Assembly (NCBI RefSeq): GCF_007997295.1
Contig: NZ_VORY01000006.1
Coordinates: forward strand, 62,001 to 126,000
Length of the DNA: 64,000 bases
Direction: 5' to 3'
Source: Gillisia hiemivivida
GTDB lineage: Bacteria; Bacteroidota; Bacteroidia; Flavobacteriales; Flavobacteriaceae
Below, in pieces: positions 1,748 through 5,262 of the stretch; the stretch's first letter is position 1, and the number at the start of each line of letters is the position of its first letter. The notes under the pieces are model-generated. The model was given only the letters and a program-made list of their open reading frames with translations. It searched no databases and was not told the DNA's origin. The position numbers were made by a program, and so were the translations under genes.

Positions 1748-3544
1748 TTATTTACTTTCTGCGATCCAACTATCTATTTTATTCTCTAACAATTCTAAAG
1801 GCACACATCCAGTTTCTAGAACCTGATTGTGATACTGTCTTATATCAAATTTATCACCTAATTCCTTTTTCGCCCTTTCTCTTAATTCTATGATCTTAAG
1901 TTGTCCGATCTTATAAGAAAGTGCCTGACCAGGATTGGCCATGTATCTTTCAATTTCAGAAGTTATACCAGCCTCAGACTCTGCTTCATTCTCCATAGAA
2001 TATTGAATTGCTTGCTCTCTGGTCCAACCTTTAGAATGTAGGCCAGTATCTACAACCAATCTAACTGCGCGGTGCATTTCTGCTCCTAACATTCCGAAGT
2101 ATTGGTAAGGATCTGTATAGAGTCCCAATTCTTTTCCTAAGGATTCTGAGTATAAAGCCCAACCTTCACCATATCCGCTATACCATAATGTCTTTCTGAA
2201 ATTTGGCAGCACAGTGCTTTCTTGAGTTAAAGAGATTTGGTAATGATGTCCCGGAATGGCTTCATGCAAGAATAATGATTCATCCGAATATATGTTGTAA
2301 GTCGGTGCATCTGGAATTGGTACATAAAAAATTCCCGGTCTTGTTCCGTCTAAAGAACCTTGGTTATATTCGGCGCTTGCAGAATTCTCTCTAAAAGCTT
2401 CAGTTCTTCTAACTTCAAATTGAGTTTTTGGAGTAACATCAAATAATTTATCCAACTGAGGTTTCATCTTTTCATGGATCGCATTAAAATTTGCGATAAT
2501 ATCTTCAGGTTTGCTATAAGGCATTAACTCCTTATTCTCTCTAACATAATTAAAGAATGACTTTAAATCTCCTTTGAATCCGATTTGCTCTTTCACTTTT
2601 TCCATTTCTGAAGAGATACGCGCCACTTCATCCAATCCTAATTGATGGATCTCTGGTGCCGTCATATCTGTAGTGGTATATAGCTTTATTTGATGTTTAT
2701 AGTAGTCTTCTCCATTTGGGATAGCTGCAATTCCGCTTGTGGTTCTACCAGCCGGTAAGTATTCATTCTTAACAAAATCATGCAATTTTTGATAAGCAGG
2801 AATCACTCTATCCTCAATCATGGAAGTGTAGGACTTCTTTAAATTGGTTTTTTCTTCTTCAGAAAAACCTTCAGGAAAATTAGTGATTGGAGTGTAGAAA
2901 AGATGCTTATTTAGATCTTTTTCGGTCATAGCTTCTAATTGAGGAATCACTTTAACGATCAAGGATTTTGGTAATACATAAGCTTCCTTCATTCCTTCTC
3001 TTAATTTTTCTTCAACAGAATTCATCCAAATTAGATAGCCATCTACACGCTTTTCCCAATTTTTATAATCTTCTACAGTTTTAAATGGCTGCGAACTCAT
3101 TCCACTTGCCAATTGTCCCATACTAAGATTTACAGACCACATTTGGTCTATCGGGAAGAATTCAGAATTACGAAATTTTAAGGTTTCCAAATTTATATCA
3201 GTTTCCCATTTTAAAATCGCCTTGCTCATCTGCTCGGTTTCGGTCAGATTACCATCCTTATAATTTGAAAGTGAATCTTTATAGGAAGTGTAATAATTCT
3301 CTAAGGAATCTCTATATGCTTCAGAAAGTGTATTAGGAAATTGATCGTTATACCTATTATCTCCTGCCGCTGTTGCACTTAATGGATTTAATTTTAAGCC
3401 ATCTTCATAATAATTCTCAAGAAGAGAATTAAAATTGGAACTTACTTTTTCATTGGCTTCTGCTTTATCTTCAGTCTTAACTCCATCTTTGCATCCTATA
3501 AATAAGAGAATTATGATAATTAAGCTTGCTAGTTTTTTGATCAT
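1748..3544 (-). CDS. DUF885 family zinc-peptidase-like lipoprotein
   Basis: This 598-residue protein has a lipoprotein signal: a short basic start, a hydrophobic run, and LFIGC with the lipidated Cys at about residue 18. The mature protein should therefore be membrane-anchored in the periplasm or outer membrane. The DUF885 domain fills the rest. Its hallmark HEAIPGHH (about residues 427-434) followed by YGEGWALYSE looks like a gluzincin-type metal site, with the two His of the first motif and the Glu of the second as likely ligands. The family is presumed to contain peptidases, but substrates are unknown. It is a single gene with its own downstream terminator; no partner is apparent. Confidence 0.88.
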   Translation of the reverse strand: MIKKLASLIIIILLFIGCKDGVKTEDKAEANEKVSSNFNSLLENYYEDGLKLNPLSATAAGDNRYNDQFPNTLSEAYRDSLENYYTSYKDSLSNYKDGNLTETEQMSKAILKWETDINLETLKFRNSEFFPIDQMWSVNLSMGQLASGMSSQPFKTVEDYKNWEKRVDGYLIWMNSVEEKLREGMKEAYVLPKSLIVKVIPQLEAMTEKDLNKHLFYTPITNFPEGFSEEEKTNLKKSYTSMIEDRVIPAYQKLHDFVKNEYLPAGRTTSGIAAIPNGEDYYKHQIKLYTTTDMTAPEIHQLGLDEVARISSEMEKVKEQIGFKGDLKSFFNYVRENKELMPYSKPEDIIANFNAIHEKMKPQLDKLFDVTPKTQFEVRRTEAFRENSASAEYNQGSLDGTRPGIFYVPIPDAPTYNIYSDESLFLHEAIPGHHYQISLTQESTVLPNFRKTLWYSGYGEGWALYSESLGKELGLYTDPYQYFGMLGAEMHRAVRLVVDTGLHSKGWTREQAIQYSMENEAESEAGITSEIERYMANPGQALSYKIGQLKIIELRERAKKELGDKFDIRQYHNQVLETGCVPLELLENKIDSWIAESK

Positions 3545-3744
3545 TAATTTGTGTTTAATATTAGTTATATAAATGTAGGAGAAATCTAACTAATATATAT
3601 GTAGCTGTAAATTAAATATTTAACATCTCTATAGATGAAAAAGAACATTATAAATTGATGTGATTATCTAATATGACAAAGCTATTACTATAAAAAAAGT
3701 GAAAATTAATCATAATTTTAAGTCCTCTCAATTTAATAAAAATC

Positions 3745-3752
3745 TATATTTG
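3745..3752 (+). promoter_or_regulatory. Promoter -7 box TAnnTTTG ahead of the riboswitch
   Basis: TATATTTG matches the Bacteroidota -7 consensus TAnnTTTG exactly. No clear TTTG -33 box is visible at the usual distance. Initiation a few bases downstream would start the RNA at about 3757-3760, exactly where the aptamer's P1 stem begins. Confidence 0.5.
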
Positions 3753-3759
3753 CCGCTAA

Positions 3760-3822
3760 TTATCAAGAATCTCAAAAGAGATAGCAACCTGCAATAACAA
3801 GCAAGGTGCTGAAAATGATAAG
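3760..3822 (+). promoter_or_regulatory. Compact SAM-clan riboswitch aptamer
   Basis: P1 pairs TTATCA (3760-3765) with TGATAA (3816-3821). It is followed by the CAAGA joining segment typical of SAM-I-type RNAs. P2 is only ATCTC-AAAA-GAGAT (3769-3782). P3 holds the conserved GCAACC (3784-3789) and AAGGTGC (3803-3809), with an 8-nt loop at 3793-3800. The order and sequence of these core elements match the SAM-I/SAM-IV clan. The P2 kink-turn, its pseudoknot loop and P4 of standard SAM-I are absent, giving only 63 nt. The P3 loop (TAACA, 3795-3799) could pair with TGTTA at 3841-3845, resembling the extra pseudoknot of SAM-IV-like RNAs. Subclass is uncertain. Confidence 0.75.
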
Positions 3823-3912
3823 CCATTTCTTTGGAACAAATGTTAATCACTACTTCCTTTTTATTGCTTTAATTTCCTTTTTTGAGATTCATAAAAATTT
3901 TGATTTATGAAT
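3823..3912 (+). promoter_or_regulatory. Riboswitch expression platform hiding the start codon
   Basis: Two mutually exclusive pairings are visible. (1) ATTCATAAA (3887-3895) is perfectly complementary to TTTATGAAT (3904-3912), a 9-bp hairpin that contains the ATG at 3907. (2) TTTTGAGATTC (3880-3890) is perfectly complementary to GAATCTCAAAA (3767-3777), the J1/2 and P2 5' strand of the aptamer; the pairing extends to 14 bp (3767-3780 with 3877-3890) including one G-U. Ligand-stabilised aptamer would free 3880-3890 and let the start-codon hairpin form (off). Without ligand, pairing 2 would break that hairpin (on). A small CATTT/AAATG hairpin (3824-3842) lies between. Confidence 0.7.
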
Positions 3913-5262
3913 AATTCTATTGAGACTGAAAAGAAGGTAAATTTTTATGCATTACTACCCTTATTTTTATTTGTTTTAACTTTTTTAGGTGCTGGTATCT
4001 ATTTAGACGATTTTTATGCATTGCCTTCTCCAATTGCCGTAATACTAGGTATAGTGTTAGCACTAGTCATGTTCAAAGACTCGATTAATATCAAAATAGC
4101 TACTCTCTTAAAAGGCTGTGGAGATGACAAAATATTAACCATGTGTCTTATTTATTTGTTAGCAGGTGCTTTTACAGTGGTTTGTAAAGCAACTGGAAGT
4201 GTAGATGCTATTGTAGAACTTGGCTTACAATATATTTCAATTCAGTGGTTGTACGCAGGGGTATTTATAATTGCAGCATTTCTCTCTATAGCAACCGGTA
4301 CTTCTGTTGGAGCAATTGTAGCACTAGGAGCTGTTGTAATAGGTTTTGCAGATACTACGGAGGTGTCTTTAGCAATATTGAGCGCCTCGCTTTTGGGAGG
4401 TGCAATGTTTGGGGATAACTTGTCTATTATATCAGATACCACTATCGCTGCTACTCAATCTTTGCAAGTAAATATGAAAGATAAATTCAGGCAGAATATA
4501 ATTATTGCTGGACCTGTAGCAGTTGTTACCATTGGAATTTTACTTTATCAAGGTTTTGCATTAGATGATAGCATTAAATTAGACTCATCTAATTCAATAG
4601 AAATTATTAAAATAGTACCTTATCTATTAGTGCTAACACTGGCCGTTGTTGGAATGAACGTTTTTGTAGTGCTATTTATAGGAATTCTGGCTGCGGGAAT
4701 TTTAGGGATCTATTACGGAGATTTTGGCTTGCTTGAATTCGCAAGATTATCCTATGAAGGATTTACAAGTATGACAGAGATTTTTTTACTTTCTTTATTA
4801 ACCGGTGGTTTAGCAGCATTGGTAACTAAAGCAGGAGGAATCACATTTCTAATAAATTTTATTACAACTAAAATGAATTCTAAAACTGCTTATTTTGGGA
4901 TCTCAGGTTTGGTAGGTGTCACAAACATGGCTATCGCTAATAATACAGTTTCAATTATTATAATTGGCCCCATTGCAAAACGACTAAACGATCGGTTTAA
5001 ACTGAATCCAAAAAAAGTAGCCTCAGTCCTAGATATTTTTGCCTGTGTCGTGCAAGGTTTATTGCCTTATGGAGCTCAATGTCTTATAATTTTAAGTTTG
5101 GCTGATGGTAAAATAGATTACTTAGATCTAGTAAGTAACTCATGGTATCTTTGGTTATTATTAATAGGTACTCTCCTTTATATTCAGTTAACATCCAGGA
5201 ATACTCCTACTGAGATTCCAACTGAAAAAGAGTTGGTTTTGGAAGAGGTTTTAGCTAATTAA
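3907..5262 (+). CDS. NhaC-family transporter, probable methionine transporter (MetT-like)
   Basis: This 451-residue, strongly hydrophobic protein has about 10-12 predicted membrane helices and belongs to the NhaC Na+/H+ antiporter superfamily. Family-like stretches are SIATGTSVGAIVALGAV and GGAMFGDNLSIISDTTIAA (about residues 118-185), and NMAIANNTVSIIIIGPIAK later. General annotation would be antiporter. The leader carries a SAM-type riboswitch, and NhaC-family genes controlled by SAM riboswitches have been assigned as methionine uptake systems (MetT) by comparative genomics. Methionine uptake is therefore the more likely role. The start is fixed by the leader hairpin, which pairs across ATG 3907. 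Confidence 0.85.
   Translation: MNNSIETEKKVNFYALLPLFLFVLTFLGAGIYLDDFYALPSPIAVILGIVLALVMFKDSINIKIATLLKGCGDDKILTMCLIYLLAGAFTVVCKATGSVDAIVELGLQYISIQWLYAGVFIIAAFLSIATGTSVGAIVALGAVVIGFADTTEVSLAILSASLLGGAMFGDNLSIISDTTIAATQSLQVNMKDKFRQNIIIAGPVAVVTIGILLYQGFALDDSIKLDSSNSIEIIKIVPYLLVLTLAVVGMNVFVVLFIGILAAGILGIYYGDFGLLEFARLSYEGFTSMTEIFLLSLLTGGLAALVTKAGGITFLINFITTKMNSKTAYFGISGLVGVTNMAIANNTVSIIIIGPIAKRLNDRFKLNPKKVASVLDIFACVVQGLLPYGAQCLIILSLADGKIDYLDLVSNSWYLWLLLIGTLLYIQLTSRNTPTEIPTEKELVLEEVLAN

Follow-up and report, generated by a model that had tools for sequence, protein, structure and literature searches.

The SAM-I/IV class of riboswitches is described as combining features of SAM-I and SAM-IV, with a P2 helix without internal loop (PMC2864571), and, relative to SAM-IV, as missing PK-1 and having P4 (PMC6890682); the sequence of its crystal structure, 4L81, is given in PMC5393176. 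NhaC-family MetT proteins are presented as probable methionine transporters with S-boxes (SAM-I) upstream in Firmicutes (PMC2940859), and MetT of gammaproteobacteria is placed under MetJ (PMC3228920). In translational sequestor/antisequestor riboswitches, as outlined in PMC2258182 and PMC10907184, the ligand disrupts an antisequestor and the sequestor forms. Flavobacterial and other Bacteroidetes mRNAs are reported to be without Shine-Dalgarno sequences; in Flavobacterium johnsoniae, structure around the AUG and an A at position -3 are reported to tune initiation (PMC6847099). The locus described here lies in a 64,000-nucleotide stretch of the Gillisia hiemivivida genome (the window) and joins a known aptamer and a known kind of target to an expression platform that is specific to the lineage and, by prediction, conceals the start codon. 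Translational riboswitches in a phylum without Shine-Dalgarno sequences seem little studied, judging by the few hits in our literature searches, and no description of this platform in flavobacteria was found in the literature searched, which covered little subscription literature.

We consider it likely that this locus is a SAM-I/IV riboswitch turning translation of a MetT-like methionine transporter OFF when SAM is abundant. Its features are as follows.

3745..3752, + strand: promoter box TAnnTTTG (TATATTTG), letters read directly, immediately 5' of the aptamer
3755..3850, + strand: SAM-I/IV riboswitch aptamer (Rfam RF01725)
3760-3765 with 3816-3821, + strand: P1, 6/6 pairs Watson-Crick
3769-3773 with 3778-3782, + strand: P2, 5/5 pairs, AAAA loop
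3783..3810, + strand: P3 with the conserved GCAACC / AAGGTGC core (Rfam alignment)
3795-3799 (P3 loop) with 3841-3845 (3' tail), + strand: PK-2 pseudoknot, pairs kept in 63 leaders
3823-3825 with 3832-3834, + strand: P5, 3 bp (Rfam alignment)
3767-3780 with 3877-3890, + strand: antisequestor (long alternative pairing), 14 bp, one G-U
3887-3895 with 3904-3912, + strand: sequestor hairpin, ATTCATAAA with TTTATGAAT, 9/9 pairs, ATG 3907-3909 inside
3907..5262, + strand: NhaC-superfamily transporter gene, 451 aa, probable MetT-like (Pfam PF03553, 80.1 bits)

The Rfam covariance model of the SAM-I/IV class, RF01725, matched positions 3755-3850 at 59.9 bits (gathering threshold 41.1; model 1-99 of 99), which was the single hit of a whole-window cmscan at gathering threshold; no other RF01725 match turned up genome-wide at E ≤ 10. 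A genome-wide search with RF00162 (SAM-I) at the same E limit returned two matches, of 81.6 and 15.3 bits, both away from the window aptamer, and RF00521 gave nothing above cut-off in the genome. The first-pass annotation had described a 63-nt SAM-clan aptamer over an NhaC-family gene; clan and gene family were borne out by the RF01725 and PF03553 scores, as were the coordinates of the TAnnTTTG box and all six pairs of P1, but the aptamer proved to be longer, P5 and PK-2 having been overlooked. The annotation had also set the missing P4 and minimal P2 apart from SAM-I. There is indeed no P4, since the gap from P3 to P1 is GAAAA (3811-3815) only, and no RF00162 match, but this is compatible with an ordinary SAM-I/IV aptamer: the Rfam structure line of RF01725 has no P4 pairs, so a missing P4 does not rule out membership, and the window P2 is a continuous helix of five pairs closed by a 4-nt loop and does not have the internal loop found in SAM-I and SAM-IV. 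A new aptamer class, considered on account of the missing P4 and short P2, was rejected because RF01725 fits end to end; judged by its sequence, the aptamer is an ordinary member of the known SAM-I/IV class. The TAnnTTTG box, which we take to be of the Bacteroidota -7 promoter type, has look-alikes at the same place in some relatives' leaders (e.g., L003, L008 and L009). The window aptamer shares with the described class the core, the simple P2, P5 and a PK-2 between the P3 loop and the 3' tail (PMC2864571, PMC6890682, PMC5393176), and differs from it in having no hairpin P4 between P3 and P1, one that PMC6890682 gives the class and that is reported for the solved structure. A further difference is that ~60 nt follow PK-2 here and hold a switch arm of their own, which is complementary to P2.

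Of 16 genomes in the genus, 9 contained RF01725 (G007 with a match at a contig end, without nhaC), as did, under strict filters, 54 of 397 genomes drawn from the family. RF01725 matches, a transporter search of genome contigs (74 loci) and the surrounding regions supplied 145 loci in total, 104 of them with an NhaC match; the SAM-I/IV pattern preceded 73 of these 104, and after 31 had been dropped and 10 duplicates merged, 63 distinct leaders remained, spanning Gillisia, Lacinutrix, Olleya, Cellulophaga, Flavobacterium, Elizabethkingia, Myroides and others. The 31 comprised 27 without detectable SAM-I/IV pattern, two that carry RF01725 yet were missed by the leader pattern (L040 and L115), one without in-frame start (L014) and one without PK-2 (L117). 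In L014, from the same-genus genome G013, the nhaC frame is seemingly broken after ~90 codons, and the riboswitch and, by eye, the matching arm persist. Clustering by leader similarity chained 49 of the 63 into one group, and NhaC identity was used in its place to thin the set to 24 representatives below 80%, 11 below 70%, 9 below 65% and 6 below 60%.

All five pairs of PK-2 were found in 58 of the 63 leaders and four of five in the other 5. Its first pair was T-A in 39 leaders, C-G in 20 (a two-sided change) and mismatched in 4, and its last pair A-T in 30, G-T in 24, G-C in 8 and mismatched in 1. For the SAM-I/IV structure (Trausch 2014), a pseudoknot is reported to take part in switching. 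The outer strands of P2 read ATCTC/GAGAT in 51 leaders, ATTTT/AAAAT in 4, ACCCC/TGGGT in 3, ACCTC/GAGGT in 2, and ATCCC/TGGGT and ATCCT/AGGAT in 1 each, with 1 unparsed; P5 strands among relatives were CCA/TGG, CCG/CGG and CCAAA/TTTGG. The PK-2 pairs and the two-sided changes over the 63 leaders argue for a ligand-binding fold that is probably maintained.

With SAM bound, P1, P2, P3 and PK-2 would hold the 5' half of the leader and leave the arm (3877-3895) free, whereupon 3887-3895 would fold onto 3904-3912, hide the start codon and keep ribosomes off; without SAM, the arm would pair back to the P2 5' strand and loop (3767-3780), opening P2 and loosening the start-codon hairpin. Computation supports the aptamer class, the arm-P2 pairing between lineages and the low accessibility of the start region. 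SAM would be the ligand and translation, not the RNA level, the presumed output, and OFF is the direction to be expected if the transporter replenishes methionine. The scheme resembles the general sequestor model (PMC2258182, PMC10907184) in that the ligand would disrupt the antisequestor and let the sequestor form; it departs from it in that no Shine-Dalgarno sequence is to be expected in this phylum, in that the AUG and codon 2 are themselves paired, and in that the arm pairs with the aptamer 5' half (P2, or P1/J1-2 in some relatives). As in the S-box metT leaders of Firmicutes (PMC2940859), a SAM riboswitch stands over an NhaC-superfamily gene. The aptamer class is another one there, with premature transcription termination, where start-codon sequestration is predicted here.

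In the folding model, the window AUG was unpaired with a probability of 0.00 when the aptamer was forced, 0.40 in the free leader and 0.69 when the long pairing was forced; the ligand-free value of 0.40 at 37 C fell to 0.25 at 20 C. The first-pass annotation held that the sequestor and antisequestor exclude each other. They do share 3887-3890, but this is only 4 nt. In the ligand-free structure predicted to be most stable (-32.7), the start hairpin is intact and stands next to a long pairing of 10 bp, the full long pairing coming to -32.3; because the two coexist in this way, the ON state would free the AUG only in part. The model, which leaves out PK-2, ligand and kinetics, made the aptamer fold 6.4-6.8 kcal/mol weaker than the ligand-free folds and, in ensemble energy, 8.4 weaker than the free leader. 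Among the 63 leaders, the AUG was freer in the full leader than in the tail alone in 52 (mean 0.34 vs 0.24) and freer than with shuffled P1/P2 in 42 (0.28), and neither relation held at 11 representatives.

The long pairing was confirmed as it had been annotated: GAATCTCAAAA (3767-3777) and TTTTGAGATTC (3880-3890) are complementary at every position, and the duplex extends to 3780/3877 for 14 bp with one G-U. When the tail (3846-3906) was dinucleotide-shuffled, 14 of 5000 shuffles reached a duplex energy of -19.0 or lower; of 2000 shuffles, 16 contained 11 nt perfectly complementary to the aptamer and 14 contained a 14-nt complement with G-U. For the 9-bp hairpin holding the ATG, likewise confirmed with 9/9 pairs, 4 of 2000 such shuffles formed a stem of that length over the AUG. 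Each window pairing is uncommon, not impossible, in an AT-rich tail, and the comparison of relatives weighs more. For this comparison, duplex energies were computed between each leader's P1/P2 region and either its own tail or tails permuted from the other leaders, a swap test designed to separate maintenance of a pairing from plain sequence conservation. The own tail gave a mean of -10.8 kcal/mol versus -9.0 for permuted tails in the 63 leaders (z = -6.3, P = 5e-5), and the advantage persisted at 24 (z = -5.2, P = 5e-5), 11 (z = -4.0, P = 1e-4), 9 (z = -3.9, P = 5e-5) and 6 representatives (z = -3.3, P = 0.0017). It was also seen after removal of the seven Gillisia leaders (P = 5e-5 for 56 leaders and for 21 representatives) and of these plus the seven strongest others (P = 5e-5 for 49 leaders, P = 0.004 for 16 representatives). 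A control segment, the codons from +10 on, gave no own-tail effect (P = 0.16-0.33), and a P5-region control displayed a relatedness effect in the 63 leaders (z = -5.0) that was gone at 6 representatives (z = 0.2).

The partner of the arm differs by lineage, being the 5' strand and loop of P2 in Gillisia, the P2 loop and 3' strand in Lacinutrix/Olleya, P1/J1-2 in several Flavobacterium leaders, and a longer and quite different P2 in Myroides; strongly changed P2 loops accompany changed tails, e.g., in Myroides, Soonwooa and Cloacibacterium. A corresponding arm and start hairpin were found in all seven Gillisia leaders, the arm being individually significant in 5. Across the whole set, the long pairing was individually significant against shuffled tails in only 21 of 63 leaders and not in the other 42, with P above 0.5 in 12, including all four Elizabethkingia, and none of the 10 Lacinutrix/Olleya leaders reached 0.05. 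Within a lineage there was no own-tail advantage (Gillisia, n = 7, P = 0.59; Lacinutrix/Olleya, n = 10, P = 0.22; Flavobacterium, n = 11, P = 0.88). This comparison supports an arm-P2 pairing that appears to be maintained, that is, matched, between lineages and not within them.

Accessibility of the start region (-14..+6) was computed by folding the tail and first codons alone. The region was unpaired at 0.41 in native leaders versus 0.53 with shuffled tails (63 leaders), the native tail giving the lower value in 59 of the 63 leaders and in 20 of the 24 and 7 of the 11 representatives. Blocking the arm raised accessibility in 52/63 leaders and in 21/24 and 9/11 representatives, and did so more than blocking a random stretch in 43/63, 17/24 (P = 0.002) and 6/11 (P = 0.21, not significant). 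The AUG was predicted to be paired (> 0.5) in 51 of the 63 leaders, and in 57 the stretch predicted to pair with the start region from upstream overlaps the arm. Codon 2 varies by lineage (AAT, GCA, ACA) and the predicted partners vary too, a match that exists by construction and is descriptive. Position -3 of the window gene is T, because the TTT before the ATG belongs to the stem. In the swap test, the region -12..+9 gave P = 5e-5 (63 leaders), 3e-4 (46) and 0.013 (24) and was not significant at 11, 9 and 6 representatives (P = 0.11, 0.16 and 0.48); the AUG with codons 2-3 alone gave P = 0.003 (63 leaders) and 0.002 (46), and P of 0.10 and above at 24 or fewer representatives. The P5 control behaved similarly to the region -12..+9 (P = 5e-5 for 63 leaders, then 0.012, 0.11 and 0.59), and as the start-hairpin signal is no better than this control, relatedness may explain it. 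The start-codon hairpin is the weaker leg of the platform compared with the long pairing. Comparison of homologous leaders thus supports the long pairing, which is matched between lineages, and the low accessibility of the start region; the hairpin's own swap test did not exceed its control.

A true SAM-I/IV riboswitch might instead act on transcription, by termination or Rho access, or on RNA decay, with the start hairpin being secondary. U-rich stretches do lie between PK-2 and the start codon, and mRNA levels are reported to respond to translational riboswitches as well (PMC11487190), but an intrinsic terminator as the output was rejected, no terminator-like site having been found in 3600-4000, and the start codon sits inside the 9-bp stem with start-region accessibility lowered in 59/63 leaders; we regard control at these levels as quite unlikely. 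The translational switch as first annotated gains from the matched long pairing, the low start accessibility and the lack of a terminator, but its exclusivity is only partial. It is also conceivable that the aptamer alone is functional and that the tail pairings of the window are chance products of an AT-rich sequence, control running by another route such as PK-2 alone. Individual pairings do arise in 0.2-0.8% of shuffles, many relatives are individually non-significant and the matched-tail signal is absent within lineages; against this, the own-versus-swapped tests hold between deeply diverged relatives, P2 loops and tails change together between lineages, and the Gillisia leaders have their arm and start hairpin in seven of seven cases (five arm-significant), which makes chance pairing very unlikely.

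On the side of the gene, a reading as sodium/proton antiporter or other NhaC-superfamily amino-acid transporter is independent of the switch mechanism. The protein scored 80.1 bits with PF03553 (Na_H_antiporter) against a cut-off of 23; the best named models were antiport_nhaC (TIGR00931, 84.6 bits, far below the 370-bit equivalog cut-off) and ArcD, likewise far below its cut-off. A PDB sequence search with the transporter returned nothing and hence no substrate hint from structure, and an NhaC relative with an undescribed role is placed under a lysine riboswitch in PMC11477304. Across lineages, the gene is nevertheless tied to two classes of SAM riboswitch, and the MetT literature (PMC2940859, PMC3228920), as far as it describes these proteins, speaks against a substrate other than methionine, a possibility that we judge unlikely. 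The product is probably a MetT-like methionine transporter, and the data strengthen the case for this NhaC branch as a methionine transporter. An Rfam scan took in 20 of the 27 patternless loci (leaving out L066, L067, L078, L080, L081, L103 and L116) and found neither SAM-I nor SAM-I/IV before 15 of them, from Kaistella, Chryseobacterium, Firmicutes and others. The remaining 5 are the Pontibacter loci (L068, L083, L085, L089 and L091), and in each of these SAM-I stands upstream of the nhaC relative. SAM-I and SAM-I/IV thus replace each other over one gene family. A DNA search of window positions 3700-5262 against a phage collection gave no match. The divergent neighbour of the locus is a DUF885 protein (1748-3544, minus strand; PF05960, 568.5 bits), and similar protein starts adjoin the riboswitch in L004 and L005.

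Elsewhere in the same genome, the 81.6-bit SAM-I site (RF00162; L146 1501-1653) precedes a metH-like gene (PF02574, 333 bits). It is like the window leader in having a downstream arm complementary to the aptamer 5' half, and inspection by eye suggests a start-codon hairpin as well; it is unlike it in its SAM-I aptamer and in a longer arm that covers P1, J1/2 and P2. A set of 41 SAM-I leaders, the best-scoring matches in genus and family, was assembled, of which 38 were cut by Rfam match lengths (L168, L187 and L196 were dropped, and L167, at the SAM-I/IV site of genome G004, was excluded); representatives were chosen by tail similarity, and the starts in L157 and L183 are probably too far upstream. 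Among these 38 best-scoring matches, a metH-like protein start followed 28 by eye, and the aptamer 5' half preferred its own tail (z = -6.7, P = 5e-5 for all 38; P = 1e-4 for 12 representatives), with no own-tail effect in a control taken from the aptamer middle (P = 0.11-0.54). The arm, in many leaders of the 38 some 40-50 nt before the start, was individually significant against shuffles in 29; the AUG was less accessible than with shuffled tails in 33, and blocking the arm raised start-region accessibility in 35. Since these SAM-I leaders have the same architecture, it is not peculiar to the window or to SAM-I/IV. We give an even chance to the broader proposal that in Flavobacteriia, which are without Shine-Dalgarno sequences, SAM-I and SAM-I/IV riboswitches share a platform whose downstream arm pairs either with the aptamer 5' half (P1, J1/2, P2) or with the start codon and codon 2. 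If true, translational riboswitches would have found, throughout this lineage, a way to work without a Shine-Dalgarno sequence, in which the AUG itself is switched. The leaders offer a compact, testable model with the start codon as the switched element, and the P2-loop and tail variants between lineages form a natural series that could be used as ready-made compensatory mutants.

Other RF01725 hits are without nhaC downstream (L015-L017, L023, L029, L032, L043, L128 and L135), L015-L017 being three copies on one 32.6-kb contig (G012). Many of these nhaC-less hits belong to a second sequence subtype (CAACCGAG...ACGGTGG) before small hypothetical genes, and one site precedes a VapE-like gene (PF05272); the VapE-like neighbour and the second subtype are hints that mobile elements may carry SAM-I/IV-like riboswitches.
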